A stretch of 47,841 bases of DNA, from contig JANLHZ010000301.1 in assembly GCA_024653775.1 (NCBI GenBank), forward strand, positions 1 through 47,841, in the 5' to 3' direction. The notes under the pieces were generated by a model that was not told the origin of the DNA, ran no database searches, and saw nothing but the letters and a program-made list of their open reading frames with translations. The translations under genes and the position numbers were made by a program. Source of the stretch: Planctomycetota bacterium (GTDB lineage Bacteria; Planctomycetota; UBA8742; JACQVU01; JANLHZ01). Below, piece by piece: positions 27,928 to 36,946 of the stretch. How positions within the stretch are numbered: the first letter of the stretch is position 1; every line of letters begins with the position of its first letter.

Positions 27928-30900
27928 ATGAATAGACAGATTTGGGATCGCCCTGCGAATGGCAGGTCTACGTGGTTGTTTTTCGCCTTTGCGCTGATAC
28001 TCATATCTTTTGGAGTAATCGCGGAGAAATTTTCCAGCAGCGACTCCGAGCGAGTCGAAAACGACGGTAAGTTCATCGCTCTCGACAATATAGTCCAGAC
28101 TGCCGGAGAGAAAAGATATGACGTCGACCGCGCTTTCGGAGCAACGTTCGCAGACGGACAGATAGTTGTCTGGTTCAGATCGGACGCTCCAGCGGATGCA
28201 CTCGAAGTCCTTACCGCCGCCGAAAACTGCGAGGCGGTTGCGACGATTCCGGAGCTTCGAGTCGCGCTGCTCGATTACTCCCGGAAGATAGACGTGATCG
28301 CGACTTCCGAAAGACTTCTCCGCCACCCGTACCTTCTGGGTGCGGAACCGAATTTCGCATATTCGATTCCCGGCGCAAGCGAATCCGAAAGCGTGCAAAG
28401 GACTTCGAAATCCGGGGCATCGAAACCCGAAGAAAGCTGGGTCGCCTTCGCCCTCGGACTCGCTCCGGCGCACAAAATCAGCCGCGGGTCTATGGACGTG
28501 AAGATCGCCGTCATCGACACGGGGGTGACTAAGCAGCGTGGATTCGCAAGGGAGCTGCTTCCGGGATACGATTTCGTGCGCGAAGAGAACGATGCCTCCG
28601 ACGAAAACGGCCACGGAACGCGAATCGCGTCGCTGATTCTATCGGACGACGGAGACGAAGTCGTGGGAGTTGCGCCAGAATGCGGCGTGATCCCCGTGCG
28701 CGTCTTCGGCAAAACCGGCGTCGGGACGAATTTCGATCTTCTTCGCGGGCTTCTCTTCGCGCGGGACTCGGGCGCGAACGTCGTGAACCTGAGCTTCGCG
28801 TCGCGGGACAAATCGAACATTCTCGAAAGCGTCTGCGATTCGCTTCTCGCGGAAAACGTCACCCTCGTCGGAGCGATCGGAAACGATGGACTCACGAAAG
28901 TCCCGACGTACCCCGCGTGTTTCGAAAGCGTCATCGCGATCGGCGCCATCGACGAGAACTTCGAGACGTATAAACTCGGGAACATCCATCCGAAAATCAT
29001 CGCGAGCGCGCCGGGAGTCGACGTCCCCGTTACAGGTCTGTATGGCGAAGTCGCGCGCGACACTGGCACTTCCGTTGCGGCGGGAATCGCAAGCGCGGTG
29101 GTCGCGCTAGTCAGGTCGAAAAATCCGGGAATGTCGACGAACGCCGCGATCGCGCAGATGCTGAAAGGAATCTTCGACACTGGCGAACCGGGAAGAGATT
29201 ACGCCACCGGATTCGGCGCGATCTCCGCATCCGGAGCGCTTTCCACCGCGGCATTCAGCTTCCACGACGTTGCGATCCGGAGCGCGCGTATCGAGGATTC
29301 GTTCCTTTCTCTCGGGCAGGGAAGCGTTTACGCAATCGACGTCGAAAACGCGGGAACGTTCGCGGAAACGAACATCCGCGTCACCGCGCGAAACGTTTTC
29401 GGAAGAATCGTGCTCGATAAAACCATCGAGACCCTGCGTGCGGGCGAGGTCGAGCGCGTCGAAGTTCCGATGGAGATTCTGGACTGCCTGCCGGTGTTCA
29501 CTGGCCGCGATCACACTACGAACTGGGGCAACGCGCTCTCCGTCAGCGTGACGAAACTTCCGGACGAACTCCGCTACGACAACAACGAGCGCGGCATCAC
29601 CTTCCTGCGGGAGTTCGACGAGCTTGAAACTTCCGGAACCGTCTACCGCATCTGCCACGCGAATTCGCTGAACAAGGATATGTGGTCCGACGCGCCCTGG
29701 CGGGTCGAGGACGATCAGACCGCGATTCCGTTCTCCGTGACGCTGAAGGACTGCGGCGACGACGAACTCGATCAGCTTCGAAGCATCAGAATCAAAGACA
29801 TCACGGGCGGCGCGAGCAACGTGATTTTCGATCTGAGCTTCAACGCGGAACGCATCGGCGACAACGCGCAGGAAAAGGAGTACTGGATTTTCGAGACGAA
29901 AGAAGCGTTCGGCGCGGCTTCGCTTGCCAGCGGCACGCCGCTCACCGCGGCAAACCTCGGCTACAGCGTAGGCACCGACATAGATTTCGAGATAAGGGTG
30001 ACTAGCCGCGACAATCTCGCGTCGACCCTCGGATACGACGAGCATTACACGAAGCACGTGCGCGTCCACATCGGCGACGAAAAGCTCCCTCTGTGGAACG
30101 ACTGGTACTACGTCGATACGCACTTCCACACTATGTACACGAACAACATCGCCGAATGGGGCGGGTCGCCTTTCACGGCGAGCGCCGCGGCGCGGGCGAT
30201 CGGGATGCACTTCCTCTGCATGACGGACCATAGCTGCGATCTCGACGAGCTGAGCGACGGTCAGATTTCGTATCGCACCGACATTTACGAGTACACAGAA
30301 TGGACCGGAGGCCAGGCGGTAACGACCATTCAGGATAACCGCACCATCGGCGCAGGCACGACCTGGGACGCGCTCGGCTACGAAGAGACGATGCACTCCG
30401 ACGCGGCCTTCCAGGTAGTCAGAAACACGGAATTGAACGCCGGGAGTCTCGACCCGTCGCTGAAAGACAAGACGATTCACATGCTCGTTTTTGGCAGCCC
30501 GTACATTAACAGTCCGAAGTCGGGAATGCAGGTTGCGGGGGTATCCTTCGACGGTCCCGCGTCTCCCAATCTTTCAAATGCGCTTTCGCTGATCCCGGCG
30601 CCCGGGTTCAGTTACGCGGCGCACCCGAAGGATATGCTAAGCTCGATGGTCAACGGCGGGACGTGGACGAGCTCGGACGTCGCCGCGGGCATAGCGGCTG
30701 AGGTATTCCGCGGTTTCCAGGGCTTCAACGAGCGCGTTACGTTCAAAAGCTCCAACCAGGACAACCCGTGGGCGGATTTCGACTCTGGGAATACGCCGGG
30801 AACGTATCCGAACGCGCTTTATAACGAGGTCCGTCACTGGGACGAGAACGTCAGCGCGCAGATGTCGAACCTTGTCGGAGGCGTGCCGCGCAAACTGAGG

Positions 30901-32763
30901 TTCATCGCCGGGTCGGACGCGCACGGCGATTACAACTTCGGCGCCGACCTCACTTCGAGCGGCAGCGAAGACGCGGACGACAACGCGCTTTCGAAGGCTC
31001 GGACGCTTGTTTACATTCCGGACCCGCAGAGCCAGTGGGATGAATCGAACCTGCCGCCGAAAATCGAGATGTATCGCGCGCTTCGCGAAGGCGTGGCGGT
31101 AGCGACCGACGGCCCACTCGTACGGATGGAGATCGACAACGGGCGCGGGCAGATCGCGCAGATGGCGGGGAACACCGTCGTCGTCCGTGGCGACGGCGCG
31201 ACGATCGCGATCGACTATCTGAACTCTCTCGAGTGGGGATCCGTAACGAACGTCGATCTGTACCGCGGCGACGTCGCTACCGGAAACTCACCGCTGCTGC
31301 TTTCGAGCTGGATGGGCGGGCAAGTCACGTCGAACGCGGGCAGCTTCAGCGGAGTGAACATGGATACTTTCCAGACAAGCACCGCTCTGAGCCTTCTTCC
31401 CTCCATCGACGGCTGGGTCTACTACCGCGCGCACATTCAGACGCAGAACTCCCGCGGCCTCGCCCATAACGGCTACTCGAACCCGATCTGGGTCTACGTC
31501 GGAACTCCGGGAATCACGCCGACCGTGACGAGCGTGAACCCGCAGAGCGTGCTGAACGATCAAGCCCGGACCATCACGCTTACAGGGACCGCGCTCGATC
31601 TCACGCAGGCGGTCACCGTTAAAAACGGCGCGCACCTCTACACCTGCACGAACCTCCAGATCGCGTCGGCGACGTCGATAAGCGTCGACATTCCCGCAGG
31701 CATGTATCCGGGCACAGGTTATCAGTTCAGCGTCGCCACTCCGACCGGGACGAGCATGACTTCTCCGGCTCTGACGGTTGTCGAGCCGCTGCCGACGGTG
31801 ACGTCGGTGAGTCCGTCCCTCGCGAGCGATTCGTCGAACACCTTCGTCACGATCACGGGCACGAGTTTCATCGGAACGACGGGCGCCCGGCTCTCGGACG
31901 GCGCCTCGACCGCGCTTTCGAACGTCGTCATCGTGAGCGACACCGAAGTTCAGGCCATCGTTCCCGCGGGCGTCATACCAGGGACCTACAACGTGCTCGT
32001 AACGAACTCCACCGGATCGAGCGCGGCTGTGACGCAGACAATTCAAATCGTCAGCGCTCCGGTTACTACGAGCGTCTCGCCTTCCTCCGGACGAAACACC
32101 AGCGCGATCTCCGTGACGATTTCGGGCAGTGGATTCAGCGGCGCGACAGGCGCAAGTCTGGGCGGCATGAACGGCGTGGCGCTTACGAATTTCGTGGTGG
32201 TCAGCGATAGTCAGATCAGCGCGAATGTGCCGTCAGGCCTCGCGGCGGGGAGCTACAAACTCTTCGTTGCGTCGGGCGCGATAGAGAGCACGGGATCGAT
32301 AAGCTTCGTCACGAACGACGGAGTCATCGCGGACGCGGGTCCGGATCAGGACGTGCAGACGGGCACGGTGACGCTGAACGGATCGACGTCGCGGGACCCC
32401 GCGGGCGGGACGATAACGAGTTACCTGTGGACGCAGGTCTCCGGACCTTCGACGAGCCTTGTCGGCGCGTCGATCGCCATGCCCACATTCGAGGCGACCA
32501 GCGCGGGGACGTACGTATTCTCGCTGGTCGTAACCGCGGGAAGCGATACGTCCGCGCCGGACCAGGTCATCGTCACCGTGACCGCTTCGGGGGCGACTCC
32601 TCCGATTCCGGCGGCGGTTCCGGTGGCTGCGATCTCCGGCTCCGGTTCGGGCGGCTGCGGGATGACAAGCGCTCGCTCCGGGAATTCGAATCCGCTCGAA
32701 ACGCTCGGAATGCTGCTTCCGCTCTTCGCGGTACTCGGCTTCGTTTTCGCAAACCGGCGCTGA
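27928..32763 (+). CDS. Subtilisin-like protease fused to a PHP domain, surface anchored
   Basis: A 1611-residue exported multidomain protein. An N-terminal hydrophobic segment (about 11-32) serves as signal or anchor. An S8 peptidase follows with the complete triad Asp197 (AVIDTGV), His229 (NGHGT) and Ser382 (GTSVAAG) plus oxyanion Asn319. After beta linkers, about 720-1010 is a PHP-type metal-dependent domain: His732/His734 (VDTHFHTMY), Asp767/His768 (MTDHS), His899 (YAAHPKD) and Asp997/His999 (AGSDAHGD). Three IPT/TIG Ig-like repeats start near 1194, 1285 and 1376, then a PKD-like domain (1464-1555). The tail has SGGCGM (Cys1577), a hydrophobic helix and NRR, resembling cysteine-type C-terminal sorting signals. 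GTGGAG lies 7 nt before ATG. Confidence 0.92.
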   Translation: MNRQIWDRPANGRSTWLFFAFALILISFGVIAEKFSSSDSERVENDGKFIALDNIVQTAGEKRYDVDRAFGATFADGQIVVWFRSDAPADALEVLTAAENCEAVATIPELRVALLDYSRKIDVIATSERLLRHPYLLGAEPNFAYSIPGASESESVQRTSKSGASKPEESWVAFALGLAPAHKISRGSMDVKIAVIDTGVTKQRGFARELLPGYDFVREENDASDENGHGTRIASLILSDDGDEVVGVAPECGVIPVRVFGKTGVGTNFDLLRGLLFARDSGANVVNLSFASRDKSNILESVCDSLLAENVTLVGAIGNDGLTKVPTYPACFESVIAIGAIDENFETYKLGNIHPKIIASAPGVDVPVTGLYGEVARDTGTSVAAGIASAVVALVRSKNPGMSTNAAIAQMLKGIFDTGEPGRDYATGFGAISASGALSTAAFSFHDVAIRSARIEDSFLSLGQGSVYAIDVENAGTFAETNIRVTARNVFGRIVLDKTIETLRAGEVERVEVPMEILDCLPVFTGRDHTTNWGNALSVSVTKLPDELRYDNNERGITFLREFDELETSGTVYRICHANSLNKDMWSDAPWRVEDDQTAIPFSVTLKDCGDDELDQLRSIRIKDITGGASNVIFDLSFNAERIGDNAQEKEYWIFETKEAFGAASLASGTPLTAANLGYSVGTDIDFEIRVTSRDNLASTLGYDEHYTKHVRVHIGDEKLPLWNDWYYVDTHFHTMYTNNIAEWGGSPFTASAAARAIGMHFLCMTDHSCDLDELSDGQISYRTDIYEYTEWTGGQAVTTIQDNRTIGAGTTWDALGYEETMHSDAAFQVVRNTELNAGSLDPSLKDKTIHMLVFGSPYINSPKSGMQVAGVSFDGPASPNLSNALSLIPAPGFSYAAHPKDMLSSMVNGGTWTSSDVAAGIAAEVFRGFQGFNERVTFKSSNQDNPWADFDSGNTPGTYPNALYNEVRHWDENVSAQMSNLVGGVPRKLRFIAGSDAHGDYNFGADLTSSGSEDADDNALSKARTLVYIPDPQSQWDESNLPPKIEMYRALREGVAVATDGPLVRMEIDNGRGQIAQMAGNTVVVRGDGATIAIDYLNSLEWGSVTNVDLYRGDVATGNSPLLLSSWMGGQVTSNAGSFSGVNMDTFQTSTALSLLPSIDGWVYYRAHIQTQNSRGLAHNGYSNPIWVYVGTPGITPTVTSVNPQSVLNDQARTITLTGTALDLTQAVTVKNGAHLYTCTNLQIASATSISVDIPAGMYPGTGYQFSVATPTGTSMTSPALTVVEPLPTVTSVSPSLASDSSNTFVTITGTSFIGTTGARLSDGASTALSNVVIVSDTEVQAIVPAGVIPGTYNVLVTNSTGSSAAVTQTIQIVSAPVTTSVSPSSGRNTSAISVTISGSGFSGATGASLGGMNGVALTNFVVVSDSQISANVPSGLAAGSYKLFVASGAIESTGSISFVTNDGVIADAGPDQDVQTGTVTLNGSTSRDPAGGTITSYLWTQVSGPSTSLVGASIAMPTFEATSAGTYVFSLVVTAGSDTSAPDQVIVTVTASGATPPIPAAVPVAAISGSGSGGCGMTSARSGNSNPLETLGMLLPLFAVLGFVFANRR

Positions 32764-32813
32764 GAATTACTCTCGCGGAGTGCGGTTGTGCTGGGCGTTG
32801 GGGGATTTTTTCG

Positions 32814-32850
32814 ACTCCCTACTCCCTACTCCCTACTCCCTACTCCCTAC
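32814..32850. repeat. 7-bp microsatellite (ACTCCCT)
   Basis: Five perfect tandem copies of ACTCCCT plus two bases, lying between convergent genes and ending one base before the stop codon of the reverse transcriptase gene. Copy number may vary between strains. Confidence 0.9.
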
Positions 32851-32851
32851 T

Positions 32852-34096
32852 TCAATGCGGATACAGATCGAGTTGCATCTTCTTCTTGTTACCGATGAAT
32901 TCGAGATCGTGGGCCGCGAGGTATTCGCAGTAGGGAACGTATATCTTTCGCGGGAGGTCTCCGTAAACCATCGAGACGAACGCGACCATGGACTGAATCT
33001 CGCGCTTCTTTTCCTGCGCGAGTTCGTCCTTCGGAATCTTAGCCGCGTTGTGCAGCGCGGCACGATACACGTCGAGCTTCGCGCGGGGAATGCGTACCAT
33101 CCCCTTCTCCAGTATGAGACCAGTGACCTCCAGCGTGTCGCCCGCGCTTTTGCGAAGATAGCTCACCTTCTCCGGATTGACTCTGAACCCGGATTTTGCG
33201 ATGACCTTCTGGATTTTCTGCCGGAGGTCTTCTGGAATCTCGAAAGGCGACGAAATAGTGAGATCGTCGGCGTAGCGCGTATACCTGAGCTTCAGATCGA
33301 AACCGGAAAGCAGCGCGTAGATGTGTTTGTCCATCTTGATACACGCAACGTTGAGAAGCCAGCCCGAACACGGACCGCCCTGCGGAAGGCAGCCGTTCAG
33401 GGTAACGAGGTGAATGAGCACGCGAATGACGTCGTCGAGGACGTGATACGGGACGTACTCGCCGAGCCGACGCATTGGAGTTTTGAGGTAGCGCACGAGG
33501 CTGTGCTTGACGCGGATCGCCTTCACGCTCGGGAACGCGTCCTTCAGGTCGAGGTTCAGCATCTCGCTTGCGCTTTCGAGGTGGTACTTCGCGCCCGTGA
33601 CGATGCTCCGCGCCGGCATGAATCCGTGGCACGCGTTCGATACTGGAATATGGTACAGAAGTCGATCCAGAATCCGTCGCTGCACGAGTTTCAGTTCCTC
33701 GCAGGGAGAATCGATGTTCCGGAACTTCCCGGTGTCGCCCTTTGGAATCTGCCAGGAGTCGTACGCGCTTCCAGTTTCGAGCTTCATCAGGCTCATTTCG
33801 ATGGCGAGTGGATCGACGTCGAGCCAGTTCGCAAGGAATTCGATCGCTCGCTGCTTGTGCGGAATATTGAAATTCGAAGGATAGAACGGCTCGCTTTGCT
33901 CCTCGCCTTTCACGCGCCGTCGTTTCGAGTCCGCGAGAGGATTCGAATCCGGAATAGCGCTACCGCCATCCGCGAGCGCCGCGACGATGAGAATCGCGGA
34001 ACATTTCGGGCACCGAAGACGGGTTCCGGGCACGTTCGAACCTTCGAACACCATGGAACACGACGGGCAGACTACTTGAAATTTTTTGTGGGTCAT
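32852..34096 (-). CDS. Retron-type reverse transcriptase with N-terminal zinc ribbon
   Basis: A 414-residue RNA-directed DNA polymerase. Residues 10-32 hold a CPSC...CPKC zinc ribbon and about 72-400 the RT. Fingers motifs are QIPKGDTGKFRNI and CHGFMPARSIVTGAKYH (compare the NAxxH region of retron RTs). Motif A is LDLKDAFPS (Asp183), motif B is LPQGGPCSG (237-245), the active site is YTRYADD (275-278) and GFRVNPEK follows. The EVTGL (Val324-Gly326) matches the VTG triplet of retron RTs, and there is no group II intron maturase or endonuclease domain. The ATG is only 2 nt after the T-run of the upstream RNA terminator and has no ribosome binding site. A retron effector is not obvious: the gene is convergent with the protease and follows a structured RNA. 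Confidence 0.92.
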   Translation of the reverse strand: MTHKKFQVVCPSCSMVFEGSNVPGTRLRCPKCSAILIVAALADGGSAIPDSNPLADSKRRRVKGEEQSEPFYPSNFNIPHKQRAIEFLANWLDVDPLAIEMSLMKLETGSAYDSWQIPKGDTGKFRNIDSPCEELKLVQRRILDRLLYHIPVSNACHGFMPARSIVTGAKYHLESASEMLNLDLKDAFPSVKAIRVKHSLVRYLKTPMRRLGEYVPYHVLDDVIRVLIHLVTLNGCLPQGGPCSGWLLNVACIKMDKHIYALLSGFDLKLRYTRYADDLTISSPFEIPEDLRQKIQKVIAKSGFRVNPEKVSYLRKSAGDTLEVTGLILEKGMVRIPRAKLDVYRAALHNAAKIPKDELAQEKKREIQSMVAFVSMVYGDLPRKIYVPYCEYLAAHDLEFIGNKKKMQLDLYPH

Positions 34097-34098
34097 TG

Positions 34099-34132
34099 AA
34101 AAAATGCGCTGGTCGGGGCAGCCCCTTCCAGC
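34099..34132 (-). terminator. Intrinsic terminator between structured RNA and RT gene
   Basis: On the minus strand GCTGG (34132-34128) pairs with CCAGC (34112-34108), with an inner GGGG/CCCC stem, followed by a T-run (complement of the A-run 34099-34104). It lies immediately before the RT ATG, so it ends the small RNA or attenuates transcription into RT. Confidence 0.75.
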
Positions 34133-34463
34133 CCTGAGAGAGAACTCGTTACTGCGCGCTTTCCGTGGACCCCGCCCGATGAGAGTCCCTGATCGAGTAG
34201 TAGACGGACAAGGCCACGCTGAGGCTGTACAGCCCCGAACGTTCGCCCTATCCTCGATGGTCTGCTACCCGAACCGTCCTGGGGCCGCCTGCGCCGTGCA
34301 ATGGCGGCGTCAGGCTACGTCCCCACAGGCGCGGGGCGGATCGCTCCGAGAAAACCTTTCTCCTCACCGTGCGCTGCGCACGGATCATAAGAGACTCCAA
34401 TCTGTAAAAGATCAGTACCAGAATAGCCTGGTTAGGTGGCCAGTTGCGCTCTCCCTGATTGAT
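34099..34463 (-). ncRNA. Structured non-coding RNA, about 365 nt, candidate retron msr-msd or novel RNA
   Basis: The interval between a sigma70-like promoter and an intrinsic terminator, on the same strand as the RT gene directly downstream. It is GC-rich with many stable stems: CCGTGCG/CGCACGG with a 3-nt loop (34367-34383), GAGAAA/TTTCTC (34348-34362), a 10-bp stem with one bulge (34287-34296 with 34305-34315), and the palindrome GGCTGTACAGCC (34223-34234). A long-range stem pairs GTAGCAGAC with GTCTACTAC (8 of 9 pairs). The 5' segment GAGAGCGCAACT can pair with AGTTCTCTCTC near the 3' end, as a retron a1/a2 stem would. I could not match RNase P, tmRNA, 6S or SRP signatures. The plus-strand ORF spanning it (34086-34505) looks spurious. 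Confidence 0.6.
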
Positions 34464-34469
34464 GATTAC

Positions 34470-34497
34470 AGAATAATCGCGCGCGCGGGAATGTCAA
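34470..34497 (-). promoter_or_regulatory. Sigma70-like promoter of the structured RNA
   Basis: On the minus strand TTGACA (34497-34492) is followed after 16 nt by TATTCT (34475-34470). The -35 box is a perfect consensus and the -10 matches 4 of 6. A start near 34463 is expected. It lies just after the stop codon of the upstream 811-residue gene. Confidence 0.65.
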
Positions 34498-34510: not shown

Positions 34511-36946
34511 TTATTCAACCATCTTCCATGTTCCGCCGGTTTTAAGCGCGAGCGCTTCCATCAGACGGATTTTGTGTCGACCGCCGTTGTCCCGATCGGC
34601 AATCATTTGCCTACCCTGACCGCCGACTTCAATCACGTTGATCTCGACGTCGTAAAGTTCAGCCCAGTCTGTAACGTGTTTATAGATTATTTCCACGTCG
34701 GTGATACTTCCGCCGTCCAAGTCGCCATTTGTTACGAGATAGATCGTATCCGGGACGCTTTCGAAATCCATTGCGACCGCGTCGTGGAACGCAGGCGCTC
34801 CAAAGCGATGTCCGGATGAATAGTAATGGAAAATCGTATCGAGCGCTTCGAAAAGCGCTGACTGGTCAGTACTTTCGCTAACCGATCGCATCCAACCAAA
34901 CAAATCCAAACGCGTAGCGGCGACGTTTCTTTTCATCAAGGTGCCCGGAAATGGAAAGTGCTGTTCATCGTCGAAGAACACGCACCCTATGAGGGAATTT
35001 CCATCCATGTTCCTGATAGCGCTGATCGTCTCACGTTTAGCTTCAGACAAATACGAGATTTCTGGAAGATTGTTTGAGCTAATCGGGTCTGTTTCTCGAG
35101 GTCGAAGTCGCTCGCTCCTGGAAAAGGAAGAATCGATAGCAAAAACCGCCGCGGTCGAGGCTACGGGAATGCCGAAAAAAGTTGGAAGCCCTACAATGTC
35201 TATTTCAGGAGCCGGTTCGTCGGCGCGAACGTATTTTTCACTTTGAATAGAATCGAAATTTATCGCGAGCCAATCACCCCAAAGCTCGATCTGCGGATAA
35301 AATGTTTGACCCGTCAGTTTCCAAAGTCGTTTTTCGAATTCGAAGAGCATTCTACCTGTTTGATTTTTCATTACTTCTATTATTTTCGGAATCGACGACA
35401 CCGAGCCCATTGCAACCAATCCGTCCAGCGCAGCCATACGCACCTGGCGGCTATTCGTCCCGAACATAACTCCTTCGATCTCCGAAATCGAAGCCGAACT
35501 GCCAATCCTGGCGAGAGCGCGCAACACTCCAGTCCTCACCCTCGGATCGATAACGCCTAACATCCGACGCAGATTCGCCACTGCGTCTCGATGGATCATC
35601 CAACCGTGATGTTCAATCGCGTCAAGAACTGCGATCAGCACGTCAACCGAAGATGAACCTAGCGCCTCTCCGGAAAGATACCTTATAGCGACTTCATCCG
35701 TGAATTCTTTCATCGCTTCTGCGGCTCGGATTTTGATCAGGTCCTTTCTCGCACAATCATTATGAAGACTTCTCAATTCCATCAGTCTTTCCTGCGTTTC
35801 TTCGTAGGAGGAATTCCATCGCATTTCCATCTGCAAACGTTCCAGTGCTTCGATCCCCGATTCCTCGTTGGATTTTGAAATCGGGATATCTCCGCTCACA
35901 ACGTCCATTAACTTCAGAATCGATTCCAGACTGTTGACGCGAACCGCAATACCGATTGCGCATAGATAGCCTGGGACAGTGTGCTTCATCCAGTGCCTGT
36001 TGAAATCGAGATCCCAGGTTTCGAGGGTAAAAGGCACTATAATTTCTTCATCCGCGATCTCTTCCCAATGCCCTACGTCATCCCAACCCGGCACGAATCG
36101 CTCGCTCGCTCGTAATGCGAAGTTGGAAGATATTTCCGATTCAGCGCCATATTGTGGCAAAGAATCGTCGATCATGACTTCGGTTCCGATGTCGCTATCT
36201 TCATAAGCCAACTTTTCGTCGGCGCCTTGATTCGCCCCAACGGTTGCGTTCCGATCCGACCGAATTTCATCGACTATTCCGTACACGTTCCAGATGAGAA
36301 AAAGGGACGCGAGACCCGCGATGCTGCCTAGCACAATCAGCGTTACGAGGCCTCCGCGGAGCGCGCGTTTCACCGGCGTGGGCGGCGCAACGATTTCGAT
36401 CACTCGAATCGCGGGCTGCTCTGAAATCGCCATAGGCAATCTGGCGCTCGCATTCGCCCGCGATCGCATCGGGGCGCTCGGATCGAGCACCTCCACGTCC
36501 GTCACGATGACAAGGTTCTGCGTCGAAGTGGAACTGCTCTCATTCTCAGGGATATTCGATAGTACGCTTTCGATGTATCGCGCGTCGTTCTCCTTAAGAA
36601 AACCGCGTTCGACCGCGACGTCGCGAATCCTTCTTATCTGGCTCCACTCATCGAAGCTGGTGCGCTGTATTTCCGCGCACTCGAGCGCTTCAGCGGACGT
36701 CATCAGTTTCGCAGCAACTGCCGCTTCCGCGAAACGCTGACAATCCCGCAGCATTCGAAGATAGCTCTGCTGGTGGAGAATCCGCTTTATGCCGGCTCGT
36801 TCGAGCGCGCCCTTATCCACTAGAATTCGTCCGAGTGGCGATCCAAGGCTTGATTTCTGCGCTCTGAGGGCGTCGTCACGCGCTCCGCTCGAAATAAGCC
36901 CGAGCGCGATGGCAACTTCGCCGAAGAGGGTTTCGCTTTGCTTCAC
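34511..36946 (-). CDS. GspE-N-like/HEAT/VWA membrane protein
   Basis: An 811-residue protein starting at GTG, with AAGGA 5 nt upstream. The N-terminus (about 1-125) contains GspE-N-like helical modules (LFGEVAIALGLIS...LGRILVDKGAL, AVAAKLMTSAEALECAEIQ, DVAVERGFLKENDARYI). After a Ser/Ala-rich linker comes one TM helix (about 205-230), then an extracytoplasmic part with HEAT-type repeats (about 410-540: ALARIGSSASISEIEGVMFG, ALDGLVAMGSVSSIPKIIEVM) and a C-terminal von Willebrand A-like domain with the MIDAS-type DSSFS (AVFAIDSSFS) and YLVTNGDLDGG. It probably senses or scaffolds proteins across the membrane. Codon use is less GC-rich than in nuoM next door. The same N-terminal module occurs in the protein at 39200. 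Confidence 0.75.
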   Translation of the reverse strand: MKQSETLFGEVAIALGLISSGARDDALRAQKSSLGSPLGRILVDKGALERAGIKRILHQQSYLRMLRDCQRFAEAAVAAKLMTSAEALECAEIQRTSFDEWSQIRRIRDVAVERGFLKENDARYIESVLSNIPENESSSTSTQNLVIVTDVEVLDPSAPMRSRANASARLPMAISEQPAIRVIEIVAPPTPVKRALRGGLVTLIVLGSIAGLASLFLIWNVYGIVDEIRSDRNATVGANQGADEKLAYEDSDIGTEVMIDDSLPQYGAESEISSNFALRASERFVPGWDDVGHWEEIADEEIIVPFTLETWDLDFNRHWMKHTVPGYLCAIGIAVRVNSLESILKLMDVVSGDIPISKSNEESGIEALERLQMEMRWNSSYEETQERLMELRSLHNDCARKDLIKIRAAEAMKEFTDEVAIRYLSGEALGSSSVDVLIAVLDAIEHHGWMIHRDAVANLRRMLGVIDPRVRTGVLRALARIGSSASISEIEGVMFGTNSRQVRMAALDGLVAMGSVSSIPKIIEVMKNQTGRMLFEFEKRLWKLTGQTFYPQIELWGDWLAINFDSIQSEKYVRADEPAPEIDIVGLPTFFGIPVASTAAVFAIDSSFSRSERLRPRETDPISSNNLPEISYLSEAKRETISAIRNMDGNSLIGCVFFDDEQHFPFPGTLMKRNVAATRLDLFGWMRSVSESTDQSALFEALDTIFHYYSSGHRFGAPAFHDAVAMDFESVPDTIYLVTNGDLDGGSITDVEIIYKHVTDWAELYDVEINVIEVGGQGRQMIADRDNGGRHKIRLMEALALKTGGTWKMVE

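Follow-up and report, generated by a model that had tools for sequence, protein, structure and literature searches.

The question raised by contig JANLHZ010000301.1 of a Planctomycetota bacterium (assembly GCA_024653775.1), analysed here over a stretch of 47,841 nucleotides (the window), is what is encoded by an interval of about 365 nt that lies on the minus strand directly in front of a gene for a retron-type reverse transcriptase (RT). The original prediction had offered two answers: either a new stable RNA or a retron RNA of an unusual kind. The latter proved to be the right one: with a probability of roughly 93%, the interval encodes a retron's msr-msd template, made from its own transcription unit and the partner of the adjoining zinc-ribbon RT. 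This reading is based on the covarying a1/a2 ends, the hairpin-rich msr, the variable msd, the position 5' of the RT and the co-occurrence with the RT. All window features below are on the minus strand unless stated otherwise.

The predicted unit extends over positions 34099-34463, with its 5' and 3' ends placed from the promoter and the terminator. Both of these signals, as well as the wealth of stable stems and the lack of a credible open reading frame (ORF) claimed for the interval in the original prediction, were borne out. The promoter (34470-34497) consists of TTGACA (34497-34492), a 16-nt spacer and TATTCT (34475-34470) and scores 10 out of 12; two such sites were seen in the region where 0.3 were expected, and TTGACA-type promoters also precede the RNA at G044, G055, G068 and G104. 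The intrinsic terminator (34099-34132), as read from the sequence, is a two-part G+C stem, GCTGG-AA-GGGG-CTG-CCCC-GA-CCAGC (34132-34108), followed by six T (34104-34099) that end 3 nt upstream of the RT start codon. A simple terminator scan overlooked it because of the internal loop in the stem. Strong terminators were also present 3' of a2 at G025, at G104 and in three copies in Uabimicrobium. The 365-nt fold has an energy of -164.4 kcal/mol compared with -143.2 ± 6.0 kcal/mol for shuffled sequences (z = -3.5; 0 of 100 shuffles as good), and no minus-strand ORF of at least 60 residues was found within 34463-34099. With its own promoter and terminator the RNA would form a separate transcription unit, unlike in described retrons, so that expression of the RT must come from read-through or another start.

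The structured part that counts runs from a1 to a2 (34453-34142). The a1 strand, GAGAGCGCAACTG (34441-34453), and the a2 strand, CAGTAACGAGTTC (34142-34154), are complementary with internal loops and form the terminal helix. Directly after a1 follows TG[G]C with the predicted priming (branch) guanosine at 34440, assigned by analogy with the NAGC of known retrons (PMC6868368); TGGC is conserved at this place in 11 of 11 zinc-ribbon-type RNAs. In the msr, hairpin H1 (ACCAG/CTGGT, 34417-34432) is paired in 38 of 39 cells and shows two-sided changes in all 5 pairs. An additional hairpin, CTGATCT/AGATTGG (34397-34415), is shared with the G025 and G055 RNAs and absent from those of the Uabimicrobium class. 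An outer stem, TCTC (34394-34391) with GAGA (34362-34359), spans 34359-34394 and encloses hairpin H3 (CCGTGCG, 34383-34377, with CGCACGG, 34373-34367); here 32/32 and 56/56 cells are paired, respectively, with two-sided changes in 7 of 11 pairs. The conserved AAAGGTTTTCT (34349-34359) is the predicted junction of msr and msd, and its AGG can pair with a conserved CCT (34436-34434), the CCU/AGG pairs being invariant in 10 of 10 RNAs. The predicted msd template (34155-34358, about 195-204 nt) is not conserved in sequence between loci and ends with a conserved GCG beside a2. Read from the 5' end, the RNAs have in common a1, GGC, nCCTA, H1, an outer stem that holds a U-rich element and H3, and then (A)AAGGTTTnCT. 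The middle that follows is variable and measures 170-220 nt, or more in one solo copy; GCG and a2 come next, and a recognisable terminator usually stands after them.

Covariation against homologous loci had been set beforehand as a check, and it was found. When the RNAs of five other loci, without that of the window, were used to build a covariance model, this recovered the window RNA at 34451-34349 (E = 5.3e-6 in 214 kb) as well as the G025 and G055 RNAs. Over ten RNAs, 97.2% of 246 cells are paired and 18 of 25 pairs have changed on both sides, which none of 500 shuffles reaches, in an alignment that was made to the model and is hence fitted to the structure; when the partners were slid along the alignment, pairing fell to 30-52%. 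A hand count, for which the strands were picked by eye, gave 171 of 175 cells paired and two-sided change in 15 of 22 pairs. In a plain MAFFT alignment of all RNAs the register of H1 was wrong in some sequences, and the hand counts and the structure model were used instead. For a1 and a2 of 12 RNAs, own partners pair with a mean of -9.0 kcal/mol and swapped ones with -5.1 kcal/mol (0 of 5000 permutations as good). Likewise in agreement with the earlier claim of no match to RNase P, tmRNA, 6S or SRP RNA, an Rfam search of the whole window yielded nothing at the gathering thresholds, be it these RNAs, msr, group II introns or any other family. RAGATH-10, the only near match, scored 20.2 bits where its cutoff is 41.2, was not repeated at any homologous locus and was dismissed as chance.

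Since the RNA lies directly 5' of the RT start and its terminator abuts the start codon, it could be read as a cis-acting leader that would use the terminator to control the RT gene, in the manner of an attenuator or riboswitch, and would have no role as a template. We consider this improbable. Pairing of the far ends around a variable middle of some 200 nt suits an msr-msd instead, and solo copies with a1/a2 and a terminator occur far from any RT, both in a myxococcote described below and in Uabimicrobium amorphum, where two additional copies (L068:1501-1880 and L069, minus strand) have a promoter-like sequence, a1/a2 and a terminator, with no RT nearby.

The RT stands directly downstream of the RNA on the same strand, as had been predicted (32852-34096, ATG at 34096), and its motifs, profile matches and fold are those of a retron RT. 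It has 414 residues with NACHGF (NAxxH, region X), YADD and EVTGL (VTG, region Y), and these motifs are kept in its orthologues. The first 40 residues are predicted to form a zinc ribbon: two CxxC motifs (Cys10 and Cys13, Cys29 and Cys32; 34001-34069) have all four cysteines invariant in 8 of 8 orthologues, and the AlphaFold model (pLDDT 84) places four strands at residues 6-37. All PADLOC matches of the window RT are retron RTs, the best being RT_XIII (195 bits). For this RT and two orthologues RT_XIII is the best or second-best profile, with 195-204 bits over the RT core, at small margins over II-A and III-A; III-A scores higher at Uabimicrobium. With such margins and no accessory gene found, the RT was not assigned to type XIII. 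In a sequence comparison with the PDB, retron RTs (Ec86, Ec67) also came out on top. Directly after the RT stop codon the heptamer GGGAGTA forms a short tandem repeat (32813-32850).

Several systems of defence-associated RTs (DRT) also adjoin a structured RNA, according to PMC12039810, and the RNA could accordingly be the template of another RT class, be it DRT/UG, a diversity-generating retroelement (DGR) or a group II intron. This is slightly less probable still than a leader. The RT carries the retron-specific NAxxH and VTG, ranks 1-18 of the Foldseek search against the PDB are all retron RTs with DRT and DGR below them, a1/a2 beside a conserved G is retron anatomy, and Rfam gave no intron match.

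RNA and RT are linked both by position and by co-occurrence. RT orthologues of about 50% identity, with the zinc ribbon, were identified in seven further Planctomycetota genomes and in a metagenome-assembled genome labelled Fraserbacteria (OFTM103), and the window RT groups in this clade (support 99/98). The same RNA lies 5' of all eight RTs on the same strand; at G136 it is split across two contigs with a 99-base overlap. Among 392 Planctomycetota genomes the RNA was detected in seven, all of which belong to the nine genomes with the RT at E ≤ 1e-40. Of the two others, one is the divergent G082; the second is the genome of the window itself, in which the RNA escaped the fast filter and a fuller model finds exactly one copy. 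In the class of Uabimicrobium amorphum, RT and RNA are both present in five of six species and both missing from the sixth. The least probable explanation, that the RNA is an independent stable small RNA and a mere neighbour of the RT, would suit its own promoter and terminator and the solo copies, but the hundreds of Planctomycetota genomes that lack this RT also lack the RNA, which always lies 5' of the RT on the same strand. Relatives of the RT were missed in a single-protein scan of the genome contigs and found by an alignment-based scan; none were detected in viral contigs, and no plasmid record covered 80% of the RT. In G082 the RNA scores 24.9 bits upstream of two adjacent RTs, and the system is divergent: at L044 (minus strand, 3835-3550) a1 AGCAG and a2 CTGCT are followed by a terminator, and the two RT genes lack the zinc ribbon.

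By analogy with known retrons, binding of the RT, priming and the extent of copying can be outlined for the msr-msd template. The RNA would be transcribed from its own promoter and end at its own terminator, and a1 and a2 would pair. The three-hairpin msr domain would be bound by the zinc-ribbon RT encoded alongside, which may start from the 2'-OH of G34440 in TG[G]C and copy leftwards from the GCG at 34157-34155 beside a2 to a stop near AAAGGTTTTCT (34359-34349). The predicted product is a multicopy single-stranded DNA (msDNA) that is attached to the msr and has a length of about 200 nt.

Four observations speak against a retron template. The perfect stretch of a1/a2 in the window is only 4 bp long before the internal loops begin. 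The priming tetranucleotide TGGC is a variant outside the set of characterised retrons, in which the priming G follows a1 within TAGC, CAGC, GAGC, CAGA or ACGC (PMC6868368). RNA and RT are here separated by a terminator, although the usual description of a retron has both on a single transcript (PMC8867640). Finally, no effector gene adjoins the loci, the neighbours varying from locus to locus or being rpsO and pnp. Some described retrons likewise have no evident effector (PMC8867640), and the last point therefore does not argue against a retron.

None of the PADLOC retron effector models matched among the neighbours scanned, and no linked or fused effector gene of the kind that defines a three-part defence retron was found at these loci. 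ClpC-like and subtilase-like PADLOC matches among the neighbours were rejected as housekeeping look-alikes. The 811-residue HEAT-repeat protein encoded upstream of the RNA (34511-36946) was also rejected as an effector, since its paralogous family is expanded in the window genome, with seven matches there and many in relatives without the RT. As no effector gene is linked, the role of the retron is probably cellular, or else defence with an effector encoded elsewhere. The plus strand of the window (27928-32763) encodes a subtilase of 1611 residues with IPT/TIG and PKD domains, whose C-terminus has a sorting-like tail (GCG, a hydrophobic stretch, RR).

The order RNA-RT-rpsO-pnp is found in all five RT-bearing species of the Uabimicrobium class and also in OFTM103 (six genomes including Candidatus Uabimicrobium amorphum; RT-rpsO-pnp at L045, L046, L047, L050, L051 and L057). 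The trees of the RT and of polynucleotide phosphorylase (PNPase) alike separate OFTM103 and Uabimicrobium from the other four, with moderate supports for PNPase. This fixed order, together with the same split in both trees, suggests that the locus is inherited vertically in the class. In the window, G025 and G055 genomes the pnp gene lies elsewhere; it was also located in G087, which has neither RT nor RNA.

The myxococcote with solo copies is the Myxococcota genome M3003 (L054). It encodes a protein of 719 residues in which two retron-type RT domains are fused, and the RNA model has eleven matches in it. Nine of these copies were inspected: they share the msr, their msd parts are mutually dissimilar, and no RT lies within about 1.5 kb. 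The dispersed copies (L082-L091, at least nine) have related msr and unrelated msd parts of roughly 400-550 nt, and in 7 of 9 the copy's own a1 could pair with an ACGC-TAC element that lies 490-650 nt downstream. A permutation test of a1/a2 gave 4 of 5000, a figure that is partly circular because the a2 positions were picked with the help of pairing. Provisionally, these putative templates would be several times longer than known ones. Proteins of about 720 residues with two fused retron-type RT domains were found at L052:4846-7008, L053, L054:5194-7350, L055:780-2930 and L056:4855-7005 (Myxococcota); with R2, no RNA was found 5' of the Myxococcota double-RT genes. At L059:489-4316 a single protein, which runs off the contig end and has at least 1276 residues, combines a protein kinase domain with two RT domains.

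We tentatively propose, as possible rather than probable, that these loci form a branch of retrons that is passed on vertically, has no effector and uses one RT for several unlinked templates. Each template would have its own promoter, a1/a2, terminator and a different msd, and the RT would thereby yield various single-stranded DNAs (ssDNAs) for a cellular task and not for abortive defence. That one RT may make several different msDNAs is the point most worth testing. The prevailing view of retrons is that of three-part units for phage defence, composed of a single RNA, a single RT and a single toxin. Here RT and RNA persist without a linked toxin and hold one chromosomal place across a bacterial class, and in some genomes the RNA, but not the RT, is multiplied. 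The old question of what retrons of the myxobacterial type do becomes testable in cultured Uabimicrobium amorphum. The analysis also adds a new family of RNAs, for which a covariance model is available, as well as a new RT with a predicted zinc ribbon and, possibly, long ssDNA templates useful for genome editing.

By every sequence test available, the system is a retron: the RT motifs, the grouping of the RT by profile and fold, a structured RNA 5' of the RT on the same strand and the complementarity of a1 and a2 were all found. It appears to differ from described retrons in the zinc-ribbon N-terminus of the RT, in TGGC in place of a TAGC-like site, in its own transcription unit and in the lack of an effector gene, and this form had no counterpart in Rfam or in the literature searched, a search that did not extend to the main classification papers. 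The nearest PADLOC type is XIII by RT profile, but no described type can be assigned. The RTs of the solved Eco2 (Ec67), Ec86 and Eco7 complexes (310-596 residues) have the RT fold and the retron motifs in common with the window RT. They are not known to have this zinc ribbon, and they act with a linked or fused effector. Mx162 and Sa163 of myxobacteria are alike in their long msd (162 nt for Mx162 and about 200 nt for the window RNA), an N-terminal extension of the RT and signs of vertical inheritance (PMC6868368). Their priming site is CAGC and not TGGC, the extension here is the zinc ribbon, and the window-type RNA differs in having its own promoter and terminator and solo copies, Mx162 being compared by its published description. 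In Nannocystis exedens, too, one genome holds several msDNA-like copies, described as repeated sequences (Lampson and Rice 1997, as cited in PMC6868368). The copies here differ in keeping the msr and their own a1/a2 while their msd parts are unrelated, and thus they are not copies of one msDNA.
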